DNA of 53,444 nt, taken from positions 1 to 53,444 of the forward strand of contig PFCD01000001.1 in NCBI GenBank assembly GCA_002778455.1, given 5' to 3'. How positions within the stretch are numbered: position 1 is the stretch's first letter; the number at the start of each line of letters is the position of its first letter. This stretch comes from Candidatus Micrarchaeota archaeon CG10_big_fil_rev_8_21_14_0_10_45_29 (GTDB taxonomy: Archaea > Micrarchaeota > Micrarchaeia > Anstonellales > Anstonellaceae). A program made the position numbers and the translations under genes. The notes under the pieces are model-generated. The model saw nothing but the letters and a program-made list of their open reading frames with translations, was not told the origin of the DNA and did no database searches. This document shows, piece by piece, positions 4,921 to 33,135 of the stretch.

Positions 4921-7770
4921 ATGAAAGGTGTGAACGCATCAAGAATCGCAGCGTTGGCAGCTGGTGCTATACTGCTTGGTTCTTCGGCAATCGCAGCAGG
5001 CGTAATGTACGAAAACGTCGAGCTTGTGAATCCGAACGGGCAGCCAACAGCTAAAATCGTTGTCGGTTCAAACGCAGCAGTATCAGACGGTATTGCTGCA
5101 GCGAACATTGCATCCGTCTTGGCAAACTATGCTTACAAGAGTTCAACTCTGTCAGCAGAGCTTAGCGGAGATGCAACATGTTCTACAACTGGAGAGGTAA
5201 GCGGAGCAGGAACCTGCGCGGTATCTGATAAGAAAGCAACTATTGAGATAACGCTGCCAGGAGTGCTTGCAAACGCGTACCAATTCAAGACCCTAATACA
5301 TGACGCAATTGACAAAACATTGGGCAACAGGATTACATCCCTATCTGAGGACAAGTATGACAACACAATAACGCTGTCAGACACCTCACAGATTCTCTCG
5401 CCACTAAGAGGAAGCACTGCTTCAAACACGCAGTACCTTTACAGAATCGGAGAGACTCAATATCAGGGATTTGCCCTAAAGTCTATCTCAGACCCACAGG
5501 CAAGCTCTGAGTTTGCATACACAGAAGAGCAGGGATTCTGGGTTGGCTCATCGTCTGACCCGGGAAGCGCAGTTTACTACGACTCCGGAACCTCATACAG
5601 GAACATTGTCGCAAAGCCAAACATCATTGCCTACAACGTAAGGTTTATCGGCAACGACTATGGTGTCCCGGTTTGCACTGGAAACATTGCAACATCTGGA
5701 AACTGGACTTCCTGCACAGCGACTTCTGACAGGACAGACAACCACAGGATGCACATTTGGTTCCTTGGCGAGGAGTGGGTTATTTCATCAATGACCGAGC
5801 CCTCAACAGAGGACCTGAACAACACCGTGGGCGCCAAGGCGGGCGGAAAGATTAAGCTTGCCAAGGAAGCCAAGTACGACATTATCAATGTCGGAGGCGT
5901 AATTGACGGAGGAGACTTCAAGATTCGCCTTGCGGACATTTCAGTCGCAACCGGTGCCTCAAACGAGCACCCTGCGATTATTGACGTGCTTGACGCCAAC
6001 GACGCGGTTATCGGCCAGATTCAGGTAAGCCCTGCGACCACATACACCTTTACCCAGTCCTCGACTGGCAAATCAATAAAGGTGCACGTGTACAGGACAG
6101 CGCCTGGTTTCACTTTGAGCGCAAAGTGGGCAGAGATTGCGGTATACACAGATGAGATTACCCTTGAGGACGGCAAGAGATACAACAACGCCGCCTCGGA
6201 TGACACAAACTGGAAGTATATCAAAACATCTTTGCTTTGGAAGAACCGAGACGGCTCCTCAACAGACGGCCGCGCAGACTCATTGCGTGAAATCGTCCTA
6301 TATGTGGATGATATGTCATCCTACATGTCAGGCAGCGACAACCGCATGGTCTCTGGGGACTCGATTCCGTTCCCGAAGGCAAACACAATCTACACATTGA
6401 CATACAATGGGCTTGACCTTGAATCAGCAGATTATGCAACTACTTCATTATCTGTGGACTCAAGAAGCCTAAATATTGGAAATGTGTTAAACTGCAACAC
6501 AAAGAATGCGTCTTACGAAACAAACTTCATCAAGGTGAGGTCTGATACGTCAAACGCATTTGGAGGCACCACAGATGTTCTTGGAAACGACCGAGTTGAA
6601 GAATTCTTTATTGACCCGGCCGGCAACTTTACCATGAACGGCACAGATCAGTCGCCATCAGTTGCAACAATCAATGCTGCGAACTGGTCGTCACAGGTCT
6701 TCTGGATGCCCTCTGGTTGTGACTACTACAAGATGAACAAGGTCTTTGGGCCTGCTGAAGCGGAGTTGGGAAACCTCTCCAACATCAACACAACCATCTT
6801 GACAACCTTTGCAAACACAACTGCCGCTGTGAAGTTTGACTCTGCTGGTGCAGACTCTGGTGCCTACGGAGCAATCCGCTGGTACTTTGTCAGCAACAAC
6901 GTATCAAACACCACAATGACAACAACTCCGACCTATGGCTCAACCCAGTTGTCTGGAAGCGTAGTTGGAGAGATTGTATTGCAGGAGGATGCAGGCAAGA
7001 GGAACGCAACTTCGCACTACCCAGTGCTGACAAGGTTCCCTGTATACAAGGATGCCTCTTCAACCTCTTTCTGGAGGTTTAAGACACAGGATTCCACAAC
7101 TGCTGTTGCATACTACAGCGGAATCAACGATTCTGACATAGTAACGCCAACAGCTGTGAAGTTCGCATCCTCGTATGAGCTGCCCCTATACACTGACCGC
7201 GGCACGAAAGTGACCGGAGTCAGCCTGTCGGGCGTAGACCTGCAGGTAGCAAAGAAGGTGGGCCAGCCAACCTTTACTTTCACCTTTGCTGATGAGGAAC
7301 TAGCTTCCTCAGGGCAGATTTGGGAAGCAGAGGAAGGTGATGAGAAGACCATCTCCGGCGGAATTAAGCTCAAGCTTAAATCCATAACCGAGACAGTCGG
7401 CTCATGTGTTGCCAGCACCGCATCAGGCGCAATGCCTGCGTGCACAGTGAACCTTGACGGCGTATCCGCGCGCGTAATGCCCAACAATGTTGCATCTGTT
7501 GAGGTCGTAGAGCCATACGACATCAGGCAGGCAAGCAGCATGGTCATAACAGACTCTGAGGCAGGAAGCGCAGGAGGCGTTGTGATTACAGTAGGAGGCC
7601 CGGTGGTCAACTCTGTAACCGCAAGCGTTCTTCAGGATGCAGCTGTTGACTTTGACACAAACTCAGTTTATGTCAAGGCGTTCGGCTCCAAGATTGTTGT
7701 TGCAGGCAGAGATGCAAGCGACACAATGGTGGCAGCCCAGCAGTTCATCGACGCACTGCAGAAGAACTAA
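4921..7770 (+). CDS. S-layer protein
   Basis: A 949-residue secreted protein and probably the main cell wall component. Residues 1-25 are a signal peptide ending AIAA. The mature N-terminus has the pattern KIVVGSNAAVSDGIAAANIA, typical of the S-layer N domain of Methanococcales and Micrarchaeota. The C-terminal 100 residues contain VVITVGGPVVNSVTA followed by VYVKAFGSKIVVAG, the matching S-layer C domain. The centre is rich in Thr, Ser, Asn and Asp with several NxS/T sequons, consistent with glycosylation. Codons are markedly biased (AAC, GTC, GGC, AAG) compared with the neighbours, as expected of a highly expressed gene. It has a dedicated leader, a strong ribosome binding site and a hairpin terminator. 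Confidence 0.93.
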   Translation: MKGVNASRIAALAAGAILLGSSAIAAGVMYENVELVNPNGQPTAKIVVGSNAAVSDGIAAANIASVLANYAYKSSTLSAELSGDATCSTTGEVSGAGTCAVSDKKATIEITLPGVLANAYQFKTLIHDAIDKTLGNRITSLSEDKYDNTITLSDTSQILSPLRGSTASNTQYLYRIGETQYQGFALKSISDPQASSEFAYTEEQGFWVGSSSDPGSAVYYDSGTSYRNIVAKPNIIAYNVRFIGNDYGVPVCTGNIATSGNWTSCTATSDRTDNHRMHIWFLGEEWVISSMTEPSTEDLNNTVGAKAGGKIKLAKEAKYDIINVGGVIDGGDFKIRLADISVATGASNEHPAIIDVLDANDAVIGQIQVSPATTYTFTQSSTGKSIKVHVYRTAPGFTLSAKWAEIAVYTDEITLEDGKRYNNAASDDTNWKYIKTSLLWKNRDGSSTDGRADSLREIVLYVDDMSSYMSGSDNRMVSGDSIPFPKANTIYTLTYNGLDLESADYATTSLSVDSRSLNIGNVLNCNTKNASYETNFIKVRSDTSNAFGGTTDVLGNDRVEEFFIDPAGNFTMNGTDQSPSVATINAANWSSQVFWMPSGCDYYKMNKVFGPAEAELGNLSNINTTILTTFANTTAAVKFDSAGADSGAYGAIRWYFVSNNVSNTTMTTTPTYGSTQLSGSVVGEIVLQEDAGKRNATSHYPVLTRFPVYKDASSTSFWRFKTQDSTTAVAYYSGINDSDIVTPTAVKFASSYELPLYTDRGTKVTGVSLSGVDLQVAKKVGQPTFTFTFADEELASSGQIWEAEEGDEKTISGGIKLKLKSITETVGSCVASTASGAMPACTVNLDGVSARVMPNNVASVEVVEPYDIRQASSMVITDSEAGSAGGVVITVGGPVVNSVTASVLQDAAVDFDTNSVYVKAFGSKIVVAGRDASDTMVAAQQFIDALQKN

Positions 7771-17133: not shown

Positions 17134-17193
17134 ATTTGTAAAATAGGGGTTGTGCATTTAATAATAATCCCCCAAATCCCTCCCTAAACCGCA

Positions 17194-17310
17194 GGGGGGA
17201 CTTGCCGTCCCCCCTTCAGTTTTAGGTTCTCTGAAGTGCTCCGCACTTCTGAACCCCAAGACGCTTCGCGTCTTGTAGGGTTTAATCCTGATTCCCCCCT
17301 GCCGCAAGGC
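17194..17310. repeat. Cluster of perfect short hairpins in an intergenic gap
   Basis: Three perfect hairpins lie in series: GGGGGGAC/GTCCCCCC (17194-17214), GAAGTGC-TCC-GCACTTC (17233-17249) enclosed by GGTTC/GAACC, and AAGACGC-TTC-GCGTCTT (17258-17274) enclosed by CCC/GGG. The reading frame crossing them has no gene-like features. It lies in the 17134-17446 gap between divergent genes and resembles in style the hairpin arrays at 943-1084 and 21929-22062. Confidence 0.65.
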
Positions 17311-21829: not shown

Positions 21830-21885
21830 TGTTAATTAATGGCTCTAAAATGTAATAAATGGATATGCCTTTGGCATTTTGCATG

Positions 21886-22076
21886 TTTTATATATTCTTG
21901 CACTCAAAATAGTTTAACCTTGATACACGGGGTCCGCTTGCCCTTTGGGCAAGGTCCCCACAAAATACTTGCGCATTTTGGGGCCAGCTTGACTTGCGGG
22001 TCAAGTCCCCCAAATCGCTTGTGCGTTTTGGGGTCGTGGCGTGAGCATCGTCGGCAATGCCCGCTTAACTTGTTTT
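21886..22076 (+). ncRNA. Putative structured RNA made of 50-51-nt hairpin repeats
   Basis: A TATA box (TTTTATATATT, 21886-21896) precedes, about 25-30 nt later, three units that each begin GGGG: 21929, 21980 and 22030, with spacings of 51 and 50 nt. The first two share the layout GGGG-hairpin-CCCC followed by A-run, TTGYGC and TTTT. Their hairpin stems differ but stay paired (CTTGCCC/GGGCAAG against CTTGAC/GTCAAG). The alternative CCCC...GGGG pairing between units is also possible. The last unit starts with the first 13 nt of tRNA-Trp. A T-run (CTTGTTTTTT) closes the block. It could be a non-coding RNA or a palindromic repeat element; no protein is convincing here. Confidence 0.5.
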
Positions 22077-22140
22077 TTGGCGCAAAAATGCAGAATTTGG
22101 CATTTGATATCCATTACACACTATTGTAATAATTATAATT

Positions 22141-23133
22141 ATGCGTTTCCATATTATTACGATGGTAACCTCTATTGGCATGGGTTTGACTAATGACTGC
22201 AACCTAAACTGTCCACATTGTTATTCCCGCCCGTTGAAAAAAAGCAGCATCACTCTGCCCCAAATAGAAAACATAATCAAGAAATATCCGGGGGTAAGGG
22301 ATATAAATCTGGGCACCGGGGAAAGCATCCTGAACCCATCCTTTAGAAAAATAACCGGTTATATTCTTTCAAAGGGCATACATCTAGGGCTGACCTCAAA
22401 TGGAAAAACAGTAAACGATATGGATATGGAACTCTTGATGAGCTTACACGATGTAGACATATCACTTGATTATACAACTGAAAAAAAGCACGATGCATGG
22501 AGGGGTTTGAGCGGCACATTCAAAGGGGCGTTGAAAGCAATAGAGCGGTGCAAAGAGGCCGGGATAACTACTTCGATAGCGATGGCTTTGATGAATATAA
22601 ACTACAAGGAGCTGCCAAAATTCAAAAAACTTCTTGATAAGTTTGACTGTTGTTTGCGAATAAACATATACAAACCAGTCGGGAAAAACAACTTTTCATT
22701 ATCATACTCTCAATTCTGGGATTCAATAAAGCAGATGGCCGACCATTTTTTTCTAAAGAGCTGTTCCGAGCCCGTATTGGCGCTGATTGTCCCGGATATG
22801 GTGATACGAAGATCTCCTTGTGGGGCTTCAATTCGGATTCATCCGGATCTGACAGAAACATCCTGTGTATATGTAAATGGTGAAAAAGTAAGCAGGAATG
22901 AGTTCAACAGCTTAAAAATGAAGCTTCCGATTGCATGCAAAAGTTGCAGAGTCATGCTGCAGTGCGGGGGAGGATGCCTCGGAAGAAGGATACTTGAAAA
23001 TCGAGTGAATAAACCCGACAAGTACTGCCCGATTCCGCTTAAACTTGAAGTACCAACCATAACATTCACATATCATCCGGAAAGAGGGGACTTTATCCAC
23101 GCAGGTTATCTCTGCACTATTATTCTAAGGTAG
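22141..23133 (+). CDS. Radical SAM/SPASM enzyme
   Basis: A 330-residue radical S-adenosylmethionine enzyme. The 4Fe-4S cysteines are Cys20, Cys24 and Cys27 (CNLNCPHC), followed by NLGTGE and LTSNGK strands of the partial TIM barrel. A SPASM-type C-terminus with about seven cysteines (SPCG, ETSC, CKSC, LQCGGGC and KYC) would hold one or two auxiliary clusters. SPASM enzymes commonly modify peptides, as in PqqE or sactipeptide maturation, but others act on small molecules. No ribosome binding site marks the start; ATGs at 22162 and 22180 are alternatives. It opens a tight set with the next two genes (gap of 4 nt, then 17 nt). Confidence 0.88.
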   Translation: MRFHIITMVTSIGMGLTNDCNLNCPHCYSRPLKKSSITLPQIENIIKKYPGVRDINLGTGESILNPSFRKITGYILSKGIHLGLTSNGKTVNDMDMELLMSLHDVDISLDYTTEKKHDAWRGLSGTFKGALKAIERCKEAGITTSIAMALMNINYKELPKFKKLLDKFDCCLRINIYKPVGKNNFSLSYSQFWDSIKQMADHFFLKSCSEPVLALIVPDMVIRRSPCGASIRIHPDLTETSCVYVNGEKVSRNEFNSLKMKLPIACKSCRVMLQCGGGCLGRRILENRVNKPDKYCPIPLKLEVPTITFTYHPERGDFIHAGYLCTIILR

Positions 23134-23137
23134 TTTT

Positions 23138-24064
23138 ATGTTATATAAAGGCAGCACGGTTTCAACAAATAACACTATCAACATATTTAGCAACGACAGA
23201 AAGGTCATCAATTTTTTGAAGTCCAGCCAGTTTAACCAAGAGTTCATCCCATCCTATTCTTTCAGTGAGAAAACAGTGAAAATGCCAGCACATTCCTTGT
23301 TTGTGGAAACCATATCCGAAGGGAAAGAGATGTTTAAAACAAGGAAGGGCGAATCACGTATACAGGCATCGGAAAAAAATCTCTATCTCCCAGACATCAC
23401 ATTTTTTCTCCTTTCCCTCTTCTCCAGAATACAATTGGAAAATAATAGCCTGGTAATGCATTCATGCGCCCTTGATTACAAATCCAAGGGTTTTTTAATT
23501 ATTGGCGGGCGCGGCGATGGAAAAAAAGAACTGGCACTCGTGGCTGCGATAAACGGGGCGAAGGTAGCTTCTTGTGAGAATAGCGTGCTGTGCATGGCAA
23601 AAGACGGGCATCCCTATGTTATTGACGGGACCAACCTGATGCATGTCGACTCTTCCCAGGTTCTTGATAAAGAGGCAGCAGAAAAACTGCGCACCCAAGA
23701 CGAAAAACAGGTTATATCTGCGGAAGACTTCAAGAAACTGGGCATAAAACAGATAAAAACCACAAAAATTGACTATGTGTTTTATGCGAAAATCCTGCCT
23801 AGAAGCGATATATCGGTCATAAAACCTCTTTCATGGCCAGACAACTTACTGAGACTTTATGGGAACACAGCTACATATCTATCGGGTGCAAACAATATAT
23901 TCATATCAAACTCCAGGCCATTTCCAAATCTAGATAACAAAAGACTCAGGCAATCGAGGCTGGCTGTCGCGAAGAATATTTGTAATCATACTCTCCATTT
24001 TGAGATTTGTGGAGAACCGCAAAAAGCAATAGAGTTCATGGATTCGCTCTCCGGGAGTTGTTGA
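23138..24064 (+). CDS. HPr-kinase-like P-loop protein with degenerate Walker A
   Basis: A 308-residue protein of the same family as the one at 26125-27066. The P-loop region reads LIIGGRGDGKKELA: the GxxGxGK frame remains, but the Ser/Thr after the lysine is Lys, so Mg-ATP binding is doubtful. The site matching the DD/ND region after the P-loop reads SCEN. Shared family marks are a PDITFFLL helix before the P-loop domain and YLSGANNIFISNSRPFPNLD near the C-terminus. HprK-like kinases occur in several peptide-modification clusters of bacteria. A Shine-Dalgarno AAGGTAG precedes the ATG, overlapping the stop of the radical SAM gene. It is probably a pseudo-kinase or partner subunit. Confidence 0.65.
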   Translation: MLYKGSTVSTNNTINIFSNDRKVINFLKSSQFNQEFIPSYSFSEKTVKMPAHSLFVETISEGKEMFKTRKGESRIQASEKNLYLPDITFFLLSLFSRIQLENNSLVMHSCALDYKSKGFLIIGGRGDGKKELALVAAINGAKVASCENSVLCMAKDGHPYVIDGTNLMHVDSSQVLDKEAAEKLRTQDEKQVISAEDFKKLGIKQIKTTKIDYVFYAKILPRSDISVIKPLSWPDNLLRLYGNTATYLSGANNIFISNSRPFPNLDNKRLRQSRLAVAKNICNHTLHFEICGEPQKAIEFMDSLSGSC

Positions 24065-24081
24065 ATTTGGGATCAGGACAT

Positions 24082-25338
24082 ATGCAGCAGAAACAAAGTT
24101 TTGCAATAGTCGGCGGGCAAGTCTTGAGAGGAAATGGCTTCAACCGTGCAGATGTGCTCGTGGAGAATGGTCTCATAAAAGGAATAGGCAATTACAGGAG
24201 TACACAGAACAAAATTGACGCTGCTTCGTGTTTCGTACTTCCGGGGTTCATAAACACGCATGCCCACCTTGGAGAAACAATATTCAGGGATGCTGTTAAA
24301 TTCTCGAACTTAAACGATTATATCGAAAAAACCGAGAAAATAAATGCGCTGCTAAGCGGCAAAAGCAAGCTTCTGCGTGAAATTTCTGGCTCCAACACAA
24401 TGCTTGAATTCATTCATTCAGGAATCACAACTATCTGCGCGGGAAGATGCGCCCAAGAGTGCGAATCGGCAGGTCTTAGGTCGTTTTCCGGATACATGCT
24501 CATGCAAAGCAAAAAGTTGCAGAAATATTTCACAAATTTTGAGTCGGAATTCAAGAATTTCATCACCGAAATCAACAATACCTTGCTCTCAAAGCCATTT
24601 CTTTTTCTTCACTCTCTGACATATTCAACTAGTGGAATGATAAATTTGGCAAGGAGATTAATCCAAGAGAGAGGCATTCCGCTGATGGTGCATGTGGCTG
24701 AAACCCTTGAAGAAGAAACGCGTGTAAAAGAGGAAACTGGGGTGAGTTCGGTAAAGTTTCTTGAGAATAATGGCCTCATTACGAACTCTACGCTGTTAGT
24801 GCATTGCTGCAATATTTCAGATAAAGACATGGGAATAATAAAGCGGAGAGGAGCCACAATCGTTTTGTGCCCCACGTCTAATGTGAGGTTGAATAACCAA
24901 ATCCCGCCATTTGATAAGATGCTGAAGCAGGGAATCAATCTCTGCATTGCCACTGATGGTCTTGCTACTGCTCTTTCAAAAAATATCCTCTGCGAGTGCT
25001 TATTTCTGAAAAAGGAATTTAAAAGAGTAGAATCTTTCAACTGGATGAATCTGATTACTACCAATCCAGCCAGAAGCTTGGGAATCCGCAGCGGAAGCAT
25101 GTATGAGGGGAGCAGTGCGGATATTGTCATTTTTGGGCCGGATAAGGCAGCAAATGCCAAGAAAATAAAGAGAGATGATATAATAGATTTCGTTTCGATG
25201 CTGGAAGTCAGAGATGTCATCTGTGCCGGAAAGGAGGTTATGCGAAACGGGGAGGTAACCACTATTGACGAAAAAAAGATACATGCTTCATTTAATGCTC
25301 TCAACCGCTCCATAAAAGATTTGGAAACCCAAGCTTAA
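24082..25338 (+). CDS. Metal-dependent amidohydrolase (deaminase/chlorohydrolase branch)
   Basis: A 418-residue amidohydrolase. The small beta domain (IVGGQVLRGNGFNRADVLVE) is followed by the metal motif NTHAHLGE with His60 and His62. A later histidine in HVAETLEEE, another in LLVHCCN and the aspartate in ATDGLATA complete the usual mononuclear site. This pattern is that of the ATZ/TRZ-MtaD-SsnA group, which hydrolyse or deaminate amino- or chloro-substituted heterocycles such as adenosine derivatives and guanine. The start at 24082 is chosen because a longer frame would overlap the previous gene and lacks a ribosome binding site; AGGAC precedes it. It is the third gene of the set and ends 4 bp inside the convergent methyltransferase gene. 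Confidence 0.85.
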   Translation: MQQKQSFAIVGGQVLRGNGFNRADVLVENGLIKGIGNYRSTQNKIDAASCFVLPGFINTHAHLGETIFRDAVKFSNLNDYIEKTEKINALLSGKSKLLREISGSNTMLEFIHSGITTICAGRCAQECESAGLRSFSGYMLMQSKKLQKYFTNFESEFKNFITEINNTLLSKPFLFLHSLTYSTSGMINLARRLIQERGIPLMVHVAETLEEETRVKEETGVSSVKFLENNGLITNSTLLVHCCNISDKDMGIIKRRGATIVLCPTSNVRLNNQIPPFDKMLKQGINLCIATDGLATALSKNILCECLFLKKEFKRVESFNWMNLITTNPARSLGIRSGSMYEGSSADIVIFGPDKAANAKKIKRDDIIDFVSMLEVRDVICAGKEVMRNGEVTTIDEKKIHASFNALNRSIKDLETQA

Positions 25339-26147
25339 GGTTTTTTCGCCACAATCAGCACATATACCGGTATATTGGAAATATCCTCCTCAAGCCTCAG
25401 ATTTCTGTGTATCCACTCCAACTCATTTTGATGCAAGGGCTTTTTGTTGAAGACAGATATCTCAAATCCCGTTGATTTCAGCAGATCTTCATATTCGGCA
25501 TGGTTGAGTGGGAAATGCGTCTCCTTGTATTCCATCTGAATATCCAACCTGTCTTTTTTAGTTACATACTCTGCTAAGAGATCAAAAGAAACAGAATATT
25601 TTGTTTTGCCTGTCTTCTCAAAAAAATATTTCTTGTACTCAAACTGCCTGGCAAATTTCACCAATCCCCCAAGTGCCGGAGAATCAGAAATTGTTATGTT
25701 TCCATAGTCCGAGCGCATCCCTTCCCAGATGATGGCAACTCCTCCTTTGGTCAGGTACGAATGCACATTCCTAAAGGTCTGATACACATCTGCATTGTTG
25801 GAGAACGAGACGATTTCATGCAGTGATGCGGGGAAGATTACATTGTTCACTTTAGACGCCAATTCTACCGGGCTCTGGGCGAGCGAGTTGTAGAATACGC
25901 AATTTGGAATATTCTTCCGTTTGGCAGCCGCTATCATCCTAGAATCTGCATCAATGCCGTATAGGGCGGCGTCCGGAAATGCATGTGACATTCGTTTCAG
26001 GACTTGGCCTGAGCCGCAACCAATCTCGAGTATAGGACCGTCGCCAATGTATCGAAAAAACTCCTCTTTTTTCCTAGCGTCTTTCCGAAGGGTCTGCATC
26101 AATTTTGAAAGGTCTATGTCGCTCCTATTTAGCTTCAAAGACTTCAC
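25335..26147 (-). CDS. SAM-dependent methyltransferase, class I
   Basis: A 270-residue enzyme with Rossmann motif I LEIGCGSGQVL near residue 40, motif II YGIDADSRMI and a strand VNNVIFPASLHEIVSF typical of class I methyltransferases. The C-terminal 100 residues do not match any acceptor domain I know. The gene is translationally coupled to the upstream HprK-like gene, with a 23-bp overlap, and its end overlaps the convergent amidohydrolase by 4 bp. Context suggests it methylates an intermediate or product of the neighbouring radical SAM enzymes; the substrate is unknown. Confidence 0.82.
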   Translation of the reverse strand: MKSLKLNRSDIDLSKLMQTLRKDARKKEEFFRYIGDGPILEIGCGSGQVLKRMSHAFPDAALYGIDADSRMIAAAKRKNIPNCVFYNSLAQSPVELASKVNNVIFPASLHEIVSFSNNADVYQTFRNVHSYLTKGGVAIIWEGMRSDYGNITISDSPALGGLVKFARQFEYKKYFFEKTGKTKYSVSFDLLAEYVTKKDRLDIQMEYKETHFPLNHAEYEDLLKSTGFEISVFNKKPLHQNELEWIHRNLRLEEDISNIPVYVLIVAKKP

Positions 26148-27066
26148 CTATTGTTCTAACAATATTCTGAAGATTTGCCCTCAGAACAAAAATATCTGCC
26201 TTGGACACAATAGACTCTATTAAATTCATTCTATTGGCGGAAATTTCCATATTGTCAAAGGAAGGAAACTGGCGATTGAGTGTGATAACGACACCGGATG
26301 CCCCTCTGAGGTACGTTGATGTTTCTCTGGCTAGTAAGAGAGATGCCATGTCTTTGGATAGTTTGTTGAAAATGAGCGTCTTTGAATCATCCAGCAGAGA
26401 GATGAAGAATATGCTTGATATTTTCGGGGGGTTGGTTTGGTCCGGAGTCCATTTAAGGTCCAAGATTATCTTCCCTTTTTCAGTTTTTCCAATAATCAAC
26501 GGCTCGATTATATCAAGAGTTTCCTTGTTCAGGCCGCTGTATATAGAAGGGCGAATTGACAGGTAATTTGTTCCAGCGAAAATGGCAGGGCCAGATTCCG
26601 CCGAACCAATTACGGTTTTGTCATTTGACAGAAAAGTATAGTTTCGAAGATATAAGTTCAAAAGGACCGTTGTCTTCCCGTTACCAGAGTCACCCAATAG
26701 GAGACCTGCATTCTCGTTCTTACCAAAAGCAGCTCCATGAGTTGTAAACTTCCGGTCTAAGCCATGCTGTTTTTCCAACAAAAACAATGCAAGATATACC
26801 AAATCAGGAAAATGGAGATTGTTGATCGGCGCCGAAAGGCGTATGGCTTTCTTTTGAAAGGAGAGTTTTTCCTTGCCGTCAAAATAACTCAGCGAATATT
26901 CCGCATTCGGCATCGGTTTTTTATTGAATCGGTATCCTGCAATAGATTCTTCTACAAACGGGTCTTTTTGAAAATAATTCTTGATGCGCGCGGAGTTTGT
27001 GTGTATGTTAATTTTTGAGTTCAAGGATGAAACGCTGAATGCAGCATGCAATCTAGGTTTGCGCAT
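26125..27066 (-). CDS. HPr-kinase-like P-loop protein, intact Walker A
   Basis: A 313-residue protein. The P-loop LLLGDSGNGKTTVLLN (about residues 125-140) is intact, and TFLSNDKTVI matches the conserved acidic site after the P-loop in HPr kinase-like folds. The N-terminal 100 residues and the C-terminal YLRGASGVVITLNRQFPSFD align by eye with 23138-24064, so the two are paralogs. Members of this fold phosphorylate serine in HPr, or serve as kinases in some lasso-peptide clusters. The target here is unknown. It is transcribed from a 46-nt divergent promoter region shared with the HAD gene and overlaps the methyltransferase downstream. Confidence 0.72.
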   Translation of the reverse strand: MRKPRLHAAFSVSSLNSKINIHTNSARIKNYFQKDPFVEESIAGYRFNKKPMPNAEYSLSYFDGKEKLSFQKKAIRLSAPINNLHFPDLVYLALFLLEKQHGLDRKFTTHGAAFGKNENAGLLLGDSGNGKTTVLLNLYLRNYTFLSNDKTVIGSAESGPAIFAGTNYLSIRPSIYSGLNKETLDIIEPLIIGKTEKGKIILDLKWTPDQTNPPKISSIFFISLLDDSKTLIFNKLSKDMASLLLARETSTYLRGASGVVITLNRQFPSFDNMEISANRMNLIESIVSKADIFVLRANLQNIVRTIGEVFEAK

Positions 27067-27112
27067 TATACTACCCTACACATATATTAACCGAGTATCT
27101 TAATAAAATAGT

Positions 27113-27802
27113 ATGGGAAATTTCAAGGTTTTGATCACTGATTGGGGGAACACGTTGTGCAGCACCAGTGTGAATTATGAAAACATAGCCGAATCGGCAG
27201 CCGGAATATTTACCAAGAACGGCGTTCCAATGAGTGCCACGGACTATGCCAGGATTTCAAACGAGGTTAGACTTGAACTTCGAAAGGAACTGGCTGGGGA
27301 CATCAAGCGCCACTCGCTTGGCATCCACGAGAAAAGAATCGCCACAAAACTCGGCAAGGAATTAACCGCAGAAGCGGCGGCAGCGATAGACCGGCAGATA
27401 TTTGACGCCTACCTGCAGTACTGCCACCCAAGGGGCGGAGCCAAGCATTTCCTCGAGGAAATCCGGAAGGGAGGGTTAAAGGTCATCTTGGTATCAAATT
27501 CCAATTTATTCAAGTTAAGCAATGAAATCAGGAAAATCGGATTTGACAAGTATCTTGATGATGTCATATGCTCCGAGGCATGCGGTCACGAGAAATCGGA
27601 GGGAACCCCGTATCGCCTTGCCATGGAAAAAGCTTTTAAGAAAAAATGGGCTTCAAAGGCATCCGAATTTTTGGTCATCGGAGACCGTGAAGAAGAAGAC
27701 GGTGCTGCCAGAAAATTAGGCATCAAAGTTGTTATCCTAAATAGCGCGTTGCCAAGTGAAGCAGAATTTGATAAAATACTGGGGGAGTTGTTGAGCGTAT
27801 AA
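27113..27802 (+). CDS. HAD-superfamily hydrolase, variant motif I
   Basis: A 229-residue HAD protein. Motif I reads ITDWGNTL: the nucleophile Asp10 is kept, but the second Asp of the usual DxDx[TV] is Gly, removing the normal acid/base. Motif II is ILVSNSN (Ser), and motif IV is GDREEED. The insert between motifs I and II is the helical C1 cap of the beta-phosphoglucomutase-like group. It may be a phosphatase with altered chemistry or a binding protein. It is divergent from the HprK-like gene with only 46 nt between, containing TCTTAATAAAAT as a likely TATA element. Confidence 0.78.
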   Translation: MGNFKVLITDWGNTLCSTSVNYENIAESAAGIFTKNGVPMSATDYARISNEVRLELRKELAGDIKRHSLGIHEKRIATKLGKELTAEAAAAIDRQIFDAYLQYCHPRGGAKHFLEEIRKGGLKVILVSNSNLFKLSNEIRKIGFDKYLDDVICSEACGHEKSEGTPYRLAMEKAFKKKWASKASEFLVIGDREEEDGAARKLGIKVVILNSALPSEAEFDKILGELLSV

Positions 27803-27883
27803 TGTGTCTAAGCTATCTGAACCATAAATTTATACTGCATTTAACTCTATAGTTTATATATCTCATAGATAAATTAGTAATAC

Positions 27884-29365
27884 GTGTCAAAGAGTGGTTG
27901 CTTAGTTCACTTAGTAAGGGCAAAGAGTGCCAAACCAACAAACAGGTTCTATCCTAATTTGGCTCTTCCTACACTTGCCTCAGTACTTAGGGATAAGTGC
28001 AAGGTAGAGATTCATGACCTTGGGCAGTCCGAAAGAGCTAAATATATTGAGCATGTGCAGAATACAAAACCGAAAGCAATAGGTTTCACTTCATTCATTG
28101 ACGATTTTGGAGATGTTCTATCACTTGCTTCTGAATGCAAAAATGTTTCTGAAAATTCGTTTATCATTGTTGGGGGTCCCCACGTTTCGGTATTGGGGGG
28201 TTCGAATGCCACAATTTCAAAATTCATAGATTTTGCCGTAATTGGCGAGGGGGAAAACACCATATGCAAGTTAATTCAGATGCTTTCGGATTATGGAAAC
28301 CCCCAAAAGACAGGCCAGACACATGTCGTGTGGTCCGAGAGTTTCTATAACCTCGAGTCTGCGCTTCCGCCAGCATGGGATTTGTATGACCGGACACCGT
28401 TTTTCCCGGTATTGCCGGTTGAAACTGCTAGGGGGTGCCCATATCTATGCAAATATTGCGGTGAAGGATGGATGTACGGGAAAAAAGTAAGAGCAAAGAA
28501 TATTGAACAGGTCGTCAGAGAATTGAAAATCAATGTTGAGGAAATGGATGTAAGATTTTTCCGTTTCACAGATTCGGTGCTTAATTTTTCAAAAAAACGT
28601 TTTCTTGAGTTATGCAGGGCTTTTATCGACAGCAAACTGGAGATTCGTTGGAGTGCCTACGCCCGTTTCGAGACTATCGAGCCAAGTTTCCTAGCCATTG
28701 CAAAAGAATCTGGATGTGCATCCCTATTCTTCGGTATCGAAAGCGGCAGTGAAAACATCCTGAAAAATGTCAGGAAAAAACTAACAAGCACTGACCATAT
28801 GCGCAAGGTGATCTCAACTGCCAAAGATATTGGTTTGCACACACATTGTAACTTCATAGTCGGTTTCCCCGATGAGAGCATCCACTCTGTCGGCGAATCC
28901 ATGCGGCTAATCCGGGATATTAGCCCTGATTCAGTGCACATCAGCACCTTTTTTGTCGTTCCACAAACAGACATGCACATTAACTCTGAGAAATACGGCA
29001 TACAATTCCTTGATCCGAATTGGATAAAAAACCAGCATCTATTTTTTGGCGATTCAACATATTCCTATTTCAGGCACCGTACTATGACACAAGATGATAT
29101 CCGCATGTATTATTCCATCATGAGAAACGAGATAGAACAGATAGAATCGATATATTGGAACATGAAGGACCATGTGCTTCTGACTTGGCTATCTGCAGGT
29201 GGCAGTGAAACCGGATTGAAAAGGATATGGCGCAAACCTGAGCAGTATCTGAATGCATATGAATTAAAACATTTTGAAGCATTTAAAGAAAAAGATATTC
29301 GGAGAGTGGATGATGAGCAGAATAGCAAAAAAGTCATAACAGAATTAGCCCTGAGGTTCAGGTAA
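27884..29365 (+). CDS. Radical SAM enzyme with B12-binding-like N-domain
   Basis: A 493-residue protein: an N-terminal Rossmann-like domain of the cobalamin-binding type (residues 1-130, with IIVGGPHVSVLGG and DFAVIGEGENTICKL), then a radical SAM domain with CPYLCKYC (about residues 184-191), GIESGSENILKNVRKK and NFIVGFPDES, then a C-terminal helical part. The DxHxxG base-on cobalamin motif is not visible. Relatives include methyltransferases, cyclases and methylthiotransferase-like enzymes of class B. The start is GTG at 27884, with a TATA-like TTTATATATC about 30 nt upstream, so the transcript is probably leaderless. Confidence 0.87.
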   Translation: MSKSGCLVHLVRAKSAKPTNRFYPNLALPTLASVLRDKCKVEIHDLGQSERAKYIEHVQNTKPKAIGFTSFIDDFGDVLSLASECKNVSENSFIIVGGPHVSVLGGSNATISKFIDFAVIGEGENTICKLIQMLSDYGNPQKTGQTHVVWSESFYNLESALPPAWDLYDRTPFFPVLPVETARGCPYLCKYCGEGWMYGKKVRAKNIEQVVRELKINVEEMDVRFFRFTDSVLNFSKKRFLELCRAFIDSKLEIRWSAYARFETIEPSFLAIAKESGCASLFFGIESGSENILKNVRKKLTSTDHMRKVISTAKDIGLHTHCNFIVGFPDESIHSVGESMRLIRDISPDSVHISTFFVVPQTDMHINSEKYGIQFLDPNWIKNQHLFFGDSTYSYFRHRTMTQDDIRMYYSIMRNEIEQIESIYWNMKDHVLLTWLSAGGSETGLKRIWRKPEQYLNAYELKHFEAFKEKDIRRVDDEQNSKKVITELALRFR

Positions 29366-29477
29366 TTTACAGCAGAACAGTATCACACCAATACCAATTG
29401 ATGGCTTCCCTTGTTTTTGGCAAGAAAATGCATTAATTTGCATAAAGAATTATATTTCCCCAAGCAGCAATACTTGC

Positions 29478-30239
29478 ATGGAAAAAGGGAGAAAAGCATT
29501 TGGAAAAGACAAGCTTGAGGAAACATTCAAGCATTTAGGGAAATCTCTCAAGCACCCTGTAAAGGCTTACCTGCTTGGCGGAGGGGCAATGTGCTTTCGC
29601 GACCAGAAGATTGCGACAAAAGACCTGGACCTTGTTTTCAACTCACAAAATGATTTCAATGAATTCGAGCTTGCCCTGAAAACCTGCGGCTATGCAGAGT
29701 CTGCTTTACTGGAGAAAGCCTATGAAGACATGAAGGCATCCGGCATATGGCAAAACAAGGAGGGCTTTCGCTTTGACCTTTTTGTGAAAATAGTGTGCAA
29801 CGCCATTAGCCTCTCGCAAGGGATGCTCAAGCGCTCGGCGCCTCTCGCCAAATACGGCAAGCTTGACATTTGGATGGTTTCAAACGAAGATATTATACTC
29901 TTCAAGGGAATTACGGAAAGGCTGGATGACGCCAACGATATCGAAGCGATTATCCAAAGAGCCAACATTGACTGGAATATCATATTTCAGGAATGCACGA
30001 ATCAAAGCAAGGCTCGTGCATGGTATGGTCCGCTCTATGACAAGCTCGCCGAAATGGAAAAGCGCAATATCCGCATCCCTATTCTCGGGCAATTGCTAAA
30101 GCTTGACAATATGGCAATAGTAAGGGAAGCTTTTGAGGAACAGATTCGCAAAGGGATGAGCCGCAAACAGGCAAGAGCCGCCTTAATAGGGAAAGACTTT
30201 ACAAAAGAAGAGATTGATGAGGCTACCGGCTCGGATTAA
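29478..30239 (+). CDS. Nucleotidyltransferase-fold protein (MNT/AbiEii-like)
   Basis: A 253-residue protein. YLLGGGAMCFR followed by TKDLDLVF gives the nucleotidyltransferase GG...DxD site (Asp49, Asp51), and RFDLFVK supplies the likely third carboxylate. Such stand-alone proteins resemble the toxin half of AbiEii or MNT systems and DUF6036 proteins. The C-terminal part is helical with a Lys/Arg-rich MSRKQARAAL. A TATA-like ATTATATTT about 28 nt before the ATG indicates a leaderless transcript. It converges with, and overlaps by 4 bp, the winged-helix gene that follows. Confidence 0.72.
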   Translation: MEKGRKAFGKDKLEETFKHLGKSLKHPVKAYLLGGGAMCFRDQKIATKDLDLVFNSQNDFNEFELALKTCGYAESALLEKAYEDMKASGIWQNKEGFRFDLFVKIVCNAISLSQGMLKRSAPLAKYGKLDIWMVSNEDIILFKGITERLDDANDIEAIIQRANIDWNIIFQECTNQSKARAWYGPLYDKLAEMEKRNIRIPILGQLLKLDNMAIVREAFEEQIRKGMSRKQARAALIGKDFTKEEIDEATGSD

Positions 30240-31129
30240 GCGGTTCCTGCATCATCCCTCATCCTCTCATAAAATTCAGTTTTCTGCCTCACTTCATCAA
30301 GCGCCCCCTCAACCATATATTCTTTGGCAAAGTTTTTGAGCGCCCTTAAATTCAGCCCGTGTTTGTTTCTGGCAAAAAATATGGTTAGTACCGGCATGTC
30401 TGAATGCGATTTTAGCGTGGCTAAGAGCAGGGCATGAATAAAGCATTCCTCCAAGCTTAATCCCTTCTTCTCTTGATTAAGGTTGAAATAATAGTCATCA
30501 TAAGTTGTCATGAGCGCCTCCAATCCTTTCTCGGCAAGCGCGCTTACTCCTGTTTTTGTGAAATATACGGGAACCTCTTTGGCATCTGTGCGCAAGACAA
30601 CATTCTTTCGGACTCGGACGGATACATTGTGCCCTTTGGCTTTTTGCTGAATCAGCAATTGAAGATTGTCTGCATAAGCAGATGCAAATTCCTTAAGCAG
30701 GGGGTCGGATATTTTTACCTGCCCGCCTTTCCAAAAGAGAACTCCCGCGCCACACATTGCCTTGAGCGCTTTGTAAAGGGTGTTTCTTGAGCATCCTGCA
30801 TCTTTGAGGATTTTCTCTGTCTGGGCGCCATCCGGGCATGAGATGAGAATATCCATCGCATATCCGCAAAGCCATTTCTCAATCCTGGCATTCGGGCGGG
30901 AGTCATAAAGAAGTTTGAAGCGCTGTGCATGGGATGCCATGGAAAGTTTGAGGATTTTTGCAGTGCCTGCCTTTTCGATGTCTATGATGCCTTTCTCTCT
31001 CAGGGTTGAGATGGTGCGGGAAACTGCGCTTGCCGCGCCCAGTTTTTTGGAAAGCTGGCTGGCGCTGGCGGGCTGGGCGCAGAGCTGGCAAAGAGCCAAT
31101 ATTTCTGTTTTTGATAATTTGATACTCAT
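30236..31129 (-). CDS. Winged-helix transcription regulator
   Basis: A 297-residue protein with an N-terminal winged helix (residues 1-65: LSKTEILALCQLC, then SASQLSKKLG and VSRTISTLREKGIIDIEKAG) and a second helix-turn-helix-like segment near residues 100-140 (TEKILKDAGCSRNTLYKALK). The C-terminal 150 residues are unrecognised. It converges on the nucleotidyltransferase gene with a 4-bp overlap. Its promoter carries an inverted repeat (GTTAAGT...ACTTAAC) flanking the TATA box, which suggests autorepression. Together the pair could be a toxin-antitoxin-like or defence unit in an unusual convergent arrangement. Confidence 0.7.
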   Translation of the reverse strand: MSIKLSKTEILALCQLCAQPASASQLSKKLGAASAVSRTISTLREKGIIDIEKAGTAKILKLSMASHAQRFKLLYDSRPNARIEKWLCGYAMDILISCPDGAQTEKILKDAGCSRNTLYKALKAMCGAGVLFWKGGQVKISDPLLKEFASAYADNLQLLIQQKAKGHNVSVRVRKNVVLRTDAKEVPVYFTKTGVSALAEKGLEALMTTYDDYYFNLNQEKKGLSLEECFIHALLLATLKSHSDMPVLTIFFARNKHGLNLRALKNFAKEYMVEGALDEVRQKTEFYERMRDDAGTA

Positions 31130-31140
31130 AGTAATATTAT

Positions 31141-31166
31141 GTTAAGTAATAGAATATAAACTTAAC
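31141..31166 (-). promoter_or_regulatory. Inverted-repeat operator around the winged-helix promoter
   Basis: GTTAAGT (31141-31147) and ACTTAAC (31160-31166) form a perfect 7-bp inverted repeat 12 bp apart. On the minus strand the spacer and its edges contain TTTATATTCT, a TATA box placed about 25-30 nt before the ATG at 31129. Binding of the encoded winged-helix protein here would block its own transcription. Confidence 0.55.
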
Positions 31167-31202
31167 TATTTTTGGTTATCTATACTAAACATAAGTTAAA
31201 TA

Positions 31203-31430
31203 TTGGTATTGGCATTACTTAAACATCAAATAACCGATATCTTCCGCAGGGGAACGACCTATGAATGTAGTCATGTTGCGCGCCTCGTAAGATTCAGCCA
31301 ACTGCAGCGAGATGGCATAACCTTCTTTAACTTCATCCCCACAAATATTTTCTGCATGGGGTCGTTCCACGCCCCCGCGCAGGTGCGCACATATTTTAAC
31401 ACCTGCACTGAATAACAAAGCGTGGAGCGC
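31203..31430. other. Intergenic segment with an inverted repeat and possible gene remnant
   Basis: GGAACGACC (31251-31259) is inverted at 31360-31368 (GGTCGTTCC). Just before the second arm, GGGGTCGT at 31358-31365 equals the first 8 nt of tRNA-Trp. On the minus strand a 67-codon frame (31215-31418) crosses the inverted repeat; its C-terminal part (LQLAESYEARNMTTFIGR) looks protein-like, but I recognise no family and no ribosome binding site. It may be the decayed end of a former gene at the island edge. Confidence 0.35.
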
Positions 31431-31524
31431 GGGGTCGTGGCGTAACCTGGTAGCGCGGCAGGCTCCAGATTCCCTTCCGGGAAAAAGATACCTGCATGTG
31501 GGGGTCCAAATCCCTCCGATCCCA
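31431..31524 (+). tRNA. tRNA-Trp (anticodon CCA) with a 21-nt intron
   Basis: Acceptor GGGGTCG/CGATCCC, D arm GCGT/GCGC, anticodon stem GCAGG/CCTGC, anticodon CCA at 31465-31467, T arm GGGGG/CCCTC around TCCAAAT, discriminator A at 31524. After G37 an intron of about 21 nt (31469-31489, the exact ends being ambiguous by one base) interrupts the loop; it folds as TTCCC-TTCC-GGGAA. Position 37/38 is the canonical archaeal intron site, cut by the splicing endonuclease. The intron is too short to carry the C/D-box guide found in the tRNA-Trp intron of many Euryarchaeota. CCA is not encoded. Confidence 0.92.
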
Positions 31525-31595: not shown

Positions 31596-33014
31596 CTATT
31601 TTTTGCGCCTTGCAAATGCTGCAATGCCTGCCAATATGCCAAATGCCATAGTCGGCAAGGGGCACACGGCTGCAGCTGTAATATCGCTGCCCTCTGCCGC
31701 CTGCGCAAGCTTGCCCTTGGCAACATCTGCGGCAAGCTCATCCGCGCTCAGCTCGCCTGACATTGTTTTTTTTGCCACCATCGCCAAAACTTCCTGCTCA
31801 AGCGCTTTTGCATCTGTGAGAAGCCCCTCTATTTTGGATGCCTCAACAGGCTCTTTTGCCCTCAGCTTTATCGCATCATATTTTGCGCTAATCTCGCTGT
31901 CCGCAACCTTCTCTACAGGCAACTGCATCTCCTCCAGCATTTTCTCAATAGATGCAATGTTTTCCTCATGCTTTTTTGCCGCGGCAATTATTTCATCTCC
32001 TTGCGCAGAAATTTCATCATTTATCTGCAAAGCGGCATAAAATTTCCCTTCATTTGCTAATGCTATCGCCTCGTCTTTTTTCTGCCCAAACTCCCCATAC
32101 TTTGCATTCAGGGAAGAATCAGAGAATTTTCCTGAAAGAGCAGAGGAAATTTTCCCATCCAAAGAATTCAGGTTATTTTTTGCATCAGTCCACATCTTTG
32201 CCTTGTTTTTTGTAAACTCAACCCATTCTTTTGTGTTGGCGGCTATTTGCGCGCTTCTCTCTTTTGCCCCTCCAATTTCAGATAGTGTGTTTTGCACGTC
32301 ATTCCATTTTTGCGCCTGCGCCTCCCATGCGCCAAACTCATAATTTATTTTCGGGCAATACTCATAGCACACCGCGCCGGGCACAAGGCACTGCTCATCA
32401 GTCCTGTTAAGGGCAATTCGGTGGGTATTGTGCTCAACCGCCAATTTTTGCAATTTTTTCATCTCTTCCCCAATTTTAGCGGCAGTTGAAGTTTCTTTTT
32501 CGGTTGCAGAAAACGCATCAGAAGTTGCAGTTATTTGCGCGCTCGTGTCCTGCCAAAGCCCTTTCCACTCTTTCATTGTTTCCCAAAAGCCGTCCGCATT
32601 TACCATAGACGCGGCTTGGGGCACGGAAAACGCCGCAACAATGCACGACTCCCTGTCATTGCACTCATGGTTGTCCAGTCCCGTGTATTGGGCGCATTTT
32701 GAATGCGCTTTTGAAATTTCCTCTTTCAGCTTTTCATATTCTGCATTGCTTGAGGCAAGGTTCTCATCAAAGCCAGAAGATGCAACTATGTGCTCTTCAA
32801 GCAATTTTTGAATTTGCGCCTCATCTTCCACAACTTTTCCATCAACAAGCATTATCCTCTCTTTTCCCTCAATTGTTGCCAAATATGCATCCTGCGCCGT
32901 CTTTAGCTGCATGGCATCCGCCTGCATTCCCGCCTCAGTAAATTTGGCAAGCTCTGCAGGATATGCAAAAAGCATCCCTGCCAAAATAAATATCGCAAAA
33001 ATCGTTACTTTCAT
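31596..33014 (-). CDS. Secreted surface protein with C-terminal anchor, paralog of 7923-9977
   Basis: A 472-residue protein. The ATG at 33014 follows GGTGG and begins a signal peptide (MKVTIFAIFILAGMLFA). It shares with 7923-9977 the ordered motifs LVDGKVVEDEAQIQKLLEEH, then CAQYTGLDNHECNDRESC, then a CLVPGAVCYEYCPKINY cysteine group, then a long helical region. It lacks the paralog's membrane pair and second domain. Instead it ends CPLPTMAFGILAGIAAFARRKK in two parts, CPLP plus a hydrophobic run plus RRKK, a layout like a sorting or membrane-retention signal. Probably a coiled-coil envelope protein; function unknown. Confidence 0.72.
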   Translation of the reverse strand: MKVTIFAIFILAGMLFAYPAELAKFTEAGMQADAMQLKTAQDAYLATIEGKERIMLVDGKVVEDEAQIQKLLEEHIVASSGFDENLASSNAEYEKLKEEISKAHSKCAQYTGLDNHECNDRESCIVAAFSVPQAASMVNADGFWETMKEWKGLWQDTSAQITATSDAFSATEKETSTAAKIGEEMKKLQKLAVEHNTHRIALNRTDEQCLVPGAVCYEYCPKINYEFGAWEAQAQKWNDVQNTLSEIGGAKERSAQIAANTKEWVEFTKNKAKMWTDAKNNLNSLDGKISSALSGKFSDSSLNAKYGEFGQKKDEAIALANEGKFYAALQINDEISAQGDEIIAAAKKHEENIASIEKMLEEMQLPVEKVADSEISAKYDAIKLRAKEPVEASKIEGLLTDAKALEQEVLAMVAKKTMSGELSADELAADVAKGKLAQAAEGSDITAAAVCPLPTMAFGILAGIAAFARRKK

Positions 33015-33135
33015 CAACACCACCGTTTGAATTTATTTAGGGTTTTAGAGGTTTTAAACGTTTCCCAAATCTCTCATGCCGCTTATCCTGAAAGCCGGGC
33101 GCAAAATTCTTTAAGCTTGCCTCCCCTCCCTCAAT

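Follow-up and report, generated by a model that had tools for sequence, protein, structure and literature searches.

Gene-less hairpin cassettes that copy neighbouring tRNA gene ends in a Micrarchaeota genome

tRNA genes are classic landing sites of mobile DNA, and the recombinase of integrons belongs to a superfamily related to that of the tyrosine recombinases. Integron attC and CALIN arrays consist of short, imperfectly palindromic units with pairing ends, and REP/BIME and other small palindromic repeats are also short hairpin units, sometimes paired. In archaeal tRNA genes, partial copies of the tRNA end bound the DNA inserted at the att sites of tyrosine integrases; SNJ2 uses a 14-nt site at the tRNA 3' end, and pTN3-like integrases use the 5' half (PMC8371274). 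The casposase of Aciduliprofundum boonei produces 14–15-bp duplications at a tRNA-Pro 3' end that overlap the tRNA only in part (PMC6614799), and further end copies at tRNA genes have been described (e.g. PMC9897764). Do such copies also bound DNA that carries no gene?

We analyzed a window of 53,444 nt, the complete stretch from position 1 of contig PFCD01000001.1 of Candidatus Micrarchaeota archaeon CG10_big_fil_rev_8_21_14_0_10_45_29, whose genome (G000) is 1.15 Mb in size and 85% complete. Its ribosomal protein S2 shares 80% identity with the one from an uncultured Candidatus Micrarchaeota archaeon. At issue is a 311-bp intergenic gap with divergent genes on both sides. The original prediction, made from the sequence alone, placed here a non-coding RNA array of three GGGG-led units, preceded by a TATA box and closed by a T-run. 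Several parts of this description hold. TATATAT leads the block (Table 1), GGGG occurs at 21929, 21980 and 22030, at intervals of 51 and 50 nt, and six consecutive T residues close it; a 96-aa frame that spans the block has no Pfam match, and a coding reading was dropped for lack of any family match. Transcription starting from the TATA box is plausible, and the suggested alternative CCCC-GGGG pairing between units is possible. The count of three does not hold: there are only two hairpin units, and the block at 22030 is neither a copy of them nor folded (z +0.6), with repeat families D1 and D2 both stopping at 22033. By eye, the arms of a long, imperfect inverted repeat (ATGGATAT...GCATTTTGCATG / TGCAGAATTTGGCATTTGATATCCAT), at 21837–21886 and 22080–22117, enclose the whole array.

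Table 1. Coordinates of the array, the tRNA genes and the related elements. Positions are those of the window unless a contig is named.
Feature	Position	Strand	Remarks
TATA box TATATAT	21889–21895	+	40 nt upstream of first GGGG
Unit 1: end copy GGGGTC, hairpin CTTGCCC/GGGCAAG (21937–21953), complement GGTCCCC (21953–21959)	21929–21959	+	z −2.7
Linker hairpin of unit 1 (CAAAAT...ATTTTG)	21960–21979	+	
Unit 2: end copy GGGGCC, hairpin CTTGAC/GTCAAG (21988–22005), complement CCCC (22007–22010)	21980–22010	+	z −2.4
Linker hairpin of unit 2 (CAAATCGC...GCGTTTTG)	22011–22029	+	
GGGGTCGTGGCGTGAGC: tRNA-Trp-like start, probable attachment scar, no hairpin unit	22030–22046	+	First 13 nt match tRNA-Trp 5' end
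Stretch after tRNA-like start, partly common to relatives (TCG..CG.., T-run 22073–22078, ..GAATTTGGCA)	22047–22106	+	
Intact tRNA-Trp gene with intron, probable source of the fragment at 22030	31431–31524	+	
tRNA-Arg with end copies on both sides	833–907	−	
3'-end copy of tRNA-Arg (CCTGCCAAGCCCG), following a hairpin insert	762–774	−	
5'-part copy of tRNA-Arg (1059–1078) and two hairpin inserts, each then followed by GATAGAGCGGCTGGCTT (994–1010, 943–959)	943–1078	−	
Two-hairpin insert of three-way-junction shape in a non-tRNA repeat element, between TAGG repeats	17222–17285	+	
Copies of a second repeat (L135–L140)	G000 C6:155346, C11:12523, C11:18705, C11:18791, C15:27728, C17:20648		

Unit 1 with its linker (21929–21979) and unit 2 with its linker (21980–22029) are 71–78% alike and fold similarly, each as GGGG, hairpin, CCCC and a second small hairpin. 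No shuffled sequence out of 200 matched the fold of unit 1, and 8 of 200 matched that of unit 2. The block as a whole folds modestly on the + strand (z −1.86) and better on the − strand (z −4.19). As had been predicted, the hairpin stem changes from one unit to the other while both versions pair, and stems of this kind recur in the wider cassette family described below; a third copy, on contig C14 ahead of a tRNA, keeps the stem and has a longer loop. Taken from units 1 and 2 alone, this covariation is thin support. The claim of a selected RNA structure thus stands for the paired, changing stems and falls for a free-standing RNA of three units, since the array reads as two inserts at a gene start of tRNA-Trp type.

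Presence of the unit in many intergenic places, as a simple palindromic repeat, had been named as the finding that would speak against a specific element. The unit core is rare, with two exact matches in the 1.15-Mb genome, and an abundant intergenic repeat was dropped on this ground. Unlike REP/BIME repeats, which occur as many similar intergenic copies, the cassettes are bound to the ends of RNA genes, have few similar copies, and carry tailored rather than constant ends. A viral origin was likewise rejected: one viral contig has the start pattern found at 22030, its surroundings are dissimilar, and we took the match as chance. A short pattern for the unit core had 26 viral matches, and a local search gave no further likeness to the units.

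What lies downstream of the two units? The block at 22030 opens with GGGGTCGTGGCGT, which equals nt 1–13 of tRNA-Trp from the same genome. Where relatives have no units (L004, L014), the TATA box stands 41 nt ahead of the gene start. Because the distance from the TATA box to unit 1 is nearly the same, the two units, 101 nt together, look as if they had been inserted exactly at the gene start, and this promoter spacing is the best evidence for such an insertion. Only one other sequence in the genome is clearly related to the units, with 86% identity over 58 nt. It lies immediately 5' of another tRNA gene, judged by its sequence probably tRNA-Pro, and is bounded by two copies of GGGGC, the first bases of that gene. 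Since this relative directly precedes a tRNA, we examined all tRNA flanks.

On the 3' side a recurrent order emerged: the tRNA gene end, a linker, the reverse complement of the end, one or more hairpins, and a copy of the end. Exact copies of at least 12 nt of a tRNA's own 3' end, sought up to 300 nt downstream with swapped pairs as control, were found at 9 of 38 own tRNAs and in 2 of 1392 swapped pairs. Relatives gave 3/22 versus 1/450 (G031), 1/29 versus 0/804 (G005), and 2/13 versus 0/156 (G009). Copies may be stacked in tandem. Four copies of CCTGCCGCCGGCG, including the tRNA's own, occur at C1:3874, three end copies each at C14:24519 and at G009 C13, and exact tandem repeats at G031 C90; the copies in these arrays are spaced about 50–120 nt apart with no genes between. 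The complement fits its own tRNA end better than those of other tRNAs, with a mean of 5.9 versus 4.6 nt (0 of 300 permutations). The 5' side is mirrored, with a copy of the first 5–8 nt, a hairpin, the complement, a linker and then the gene (L128, L130, L131), and units 1 and 2 follow this order, although the 5'-side statistics are weak (7/109 versus 76/2748). At L110, L114 and L146, longer stretches of tRNA 5' parts are copied, with hairpins after them. Most own tRNAs have no cassette.

We propose that units 1 and 2 are tandem cassettes at a start of tRNA-Trp type, belonging to a lineage-wide set of end-copy elements that arose by recombination at tRNA ends, a reading to which we assign a probability of roughly 0.45. 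One rule, mirrored on the two sides of the gene, would describe them all: gene end, short linker, reverse complement, one to three hairpins, end copy. Site-specific recombination would use the end copy as its exchange core and the stem of end and complement as its recognition stem, and the two units would have entered exactly at the 5' boundary of the tRNA-Trp-type start. The likeliest enzymes would be tyrosine recombinases of XerA/integrase type. Such recombinases occur commonly in the family, two of them in the own genome, both adjoining tRNAs; in two relatives, recombinases of 72% identity lie near the 5' end of tRNA-Trp. Copies measure 13–15 nt at tRNA 3' ends and 13–26 nt at 5' ends, and the SNJ2 and pTN3-like sites come close to both kinds, which we count in favor of recombination at tRNA ends. 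Against it, several cassettes are too small for known mobile elements, and a recombinase by itself leaves a complement tailored to every tRNA unexplained. The 1.7-Mb genome G013 has 17 tyrosine recombinase matches together with several fragments of tRNA-Trp type.

Like att sites of tyrosine integrases, the cassettes have exact tRNA-end copies that bound the insert. In contrast to those sites, the inserts measure only about 50–120 nt, carry no genes, contain the end complement in a fixed hairpin layout, and are stacked. Integrase genes lie beside tRNAs in the own genome and near tRNA-Trp in two relatives; none was found inside the short cassettes. The cassettes share with integron attC and CALIN arrays the short, imperfectly palindromic units with pairing ends, but no cassette genes separate the units, and the end sequence is that of the neighboring tRNA and differs at each site. 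A CRISPR array was rejected as a model, since the repeat of the cassettes is a tRNA end that differs from site to site and the spacers are structured and of variable length.

With casposons and their miniature derivatives the cassettes have in common a duplication of 13–15 nt at tRNA 3' ends. Could Cas1-type integration, casposon- or CRISPR-like, have made 14–15-bp target duplications at these tRNA genes? The A. boonei casposase makes duplications of this length at a tRNA-Pro 3' end (PMC6614799), and in the own genome Cas1 and a tRNA with a cassette are about 5 kb apart. However, the cassettes have no constant terminal inverted repeats, Cas1 was detected in just two of the 20 family genomes, the cassette-bearing G005 and G009 not among them, the own Cas1 belongs to an ordinary CRISPR locus, and the duplications stop precisely at the tRNA terminus and come with a tailored complement that this route would not lead one to expect. 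We regard it as very improbable. The CRISPR locus itself, at 5167–8927 of L246 (G000 C15:14000–31500), comprises Cas1 and what appear to be Cas2 and Cas4, with no more than three repeats in the adjacent array; its 518-aa protein may be a small effector of Cas12/Cas14 type. Gene names in L246, except for Cas1, were assigned by eye.

Slippage or snap-back copying during replication of the quasi-palindromic tRNA ends, a local template switch that needs no dedicated enzyme and serves no function, would account for some of the same features. Fold-back copying could yield the order of end, complement and end, the cassettes vary from tRNA to tRNA, and exact tandem repeats such as those at G031 C90 also fit this reading. 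Random slippage is not expected, though, to produce an arm length and a junction layout common to different genera and tRNAs, or a related, ctcacttcgttcg-like linker. We regard it as an unlikely source of the cassettes.

That common layout belongs to the 3' cassettes. Folded without constraints, most of them form a three-way junction with similar arms, with z mostly between −3 and −6 on both strands. In eleven cassettes aligned by hand, the stems vary yet remain paired, in 77 of 77 and 65 of 65 pairs in two arms, the stems having been hand-picked after the folds were seen; this supports a common structure, short of proof. A junction descriptor that was written with the folds in view, but took account of neither tRNA position nor end copies, matches about 14-fold more often downstream of own tRNAs than in a 74-kb background. 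The analysis shows end copying, tailoring to each tRNA, tandem stacking and, on the 3' side, a common three-way junction, together with the promoter spacing that suggests insertion in the window.

The same folds could reflect selection in RNA. Cassettes transcribed with the tRNA, or as a small RNA, might mimic acceptor stems, with putative roles in steering end processing, as decoys for tRNA-end enzymes, or as sources of small RNAs. The conserved junction with its changing, paired stems, the many UUCG-like loops on the tRNA strand, the complement tailored to the own tRNA end, and the TATA box ahead of the array in the window all accord with such elements. On the other side, the two strands of a cassette fold about equally well, the − strand of the block in the window folds better, and most own tRNAs manage without a cassette. 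That the cassettes are RNA-level elements is, in our view, doubtful.

The reading we prefer, recombination at tRNA ends, also takes in the fragment at 22030. A tRNA-Trp start, with one mismatch allowed and either alone or within tRNA-Trp, is present in 17 of 20 family genomes, and in several of them it runs into non-tRNA sequence that is partly common between genomes. In the own genome and in G008 the fragment lies upstream of the intact tRNA-Trp, at 9.4 kb and 2.5 kb, respectively, on the same strand and with apparent accessory genes between. The shared strand and order are what an island joined to tRNA-Trp would show, and the fragment is probably the attachment scar of such an island: by joining the 5' end of tRNA-Trp, the island would have parted the old promoter and the first 13–17 nt from the gene. 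The occurrence of several tRNA-Trp-type fragments in some genomes counts against a scar, and the stretch from 22030 to 31431 yielded no integrase. Of the genes flanking the island, compared with relatives, the left one is unique, and the right one encodes a widespread unnamed protein and shows no clear order.

Alternatively, a conserved, free-standing small RNA gene might begin at 22030, with a tRNA-Trp-like head, a body of its own, and the units as a 5' extension. Several genomes, one of them from another family, share the head and its spacing from the TATA box, and the bodies are partly similar between genomes. Yet the body here has no fold, the bodies differ widely between genomes, Rfam searches returned only tRNAs above the gathering score, and the arrangement in the own genome and G008 resembles an island scar. 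Such a gene seems to us quite unlikely. A closing stem, GTCGT/ACGAC, for the supposed RNA was rejected when inspection by eye showed that some relatives lack it.

The genes that separate the fragment from tRNA-Trp, at 22141–31129, encode two radical SAM proteins, an amidohydrolase, a methyltransferase, a HAD hydrolase and two proteins with weak matches to HprK-related kinases; the cluster may be a biosynthetic island. Immediately ahead of tRNA-Trp (31340–31430), an inverted repeat, GCAGGTGCGC..CACCTGC, surrounds a TATA-like sequence and has a similar counterpart in G012 (L029); it is possibly part of a regulated tRNA-Trp promoter. Downstream, 31596–33023 encodes a protein of about 475 aa that is present family-wide, often near tRNA genes; its hydrophobic ends are signal-like and tail-like, and it has no Pfam-A match.

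To our knowledge, no gene-less, self-complementary and stacked cassettes at tRNA ends are on record. No description of them was found in the literature searched, mostly outside subscription journals, and inserts that end in a copy of the neighboring gene end, beside many tRNA genes of a lineage, appear to be undescribed. A wider reading, in which gene-less cassettes copy and pair with the end of the adjoining RNA gene, adopt a tailored three-way junction, and build arrays in Micrarchaeota through an undescribed enzyme system, is a tentative possibility. The cassettes would represent a minimal recombination unit or an RNA element of tRNA ends in archaea with small genomes, and would allow the reading of these ends by recombinases or processing enzymes to be tested directly. 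Annotation is affected too: an end copy may be taken for a tRNA fragment or an RNA gene, as it was in the three-unit array.

Two other repeats were noticed in this genome. An element CCTAAACCGCAGGGGGGAC..GTCCCCCCTTCAGTTTTAGG..AATCCTGATTCCCCCC was found twice, at 17160–17310 of the window and in the 3' flank of L146; the copy in the window carries a two-hairpin insert of about 50 nt, which is missing from the other copy, located behind the tRNA at C1:3874. Another structured repeat, with the pattern CCCATATGGGGAACAC - N11 - TGTCCCCCTGAGGGTTTCACCCCCT, has six strict copies in the genome, all just after tRNA genes, and a similar sequence follows tRNA-Trp in relatives.
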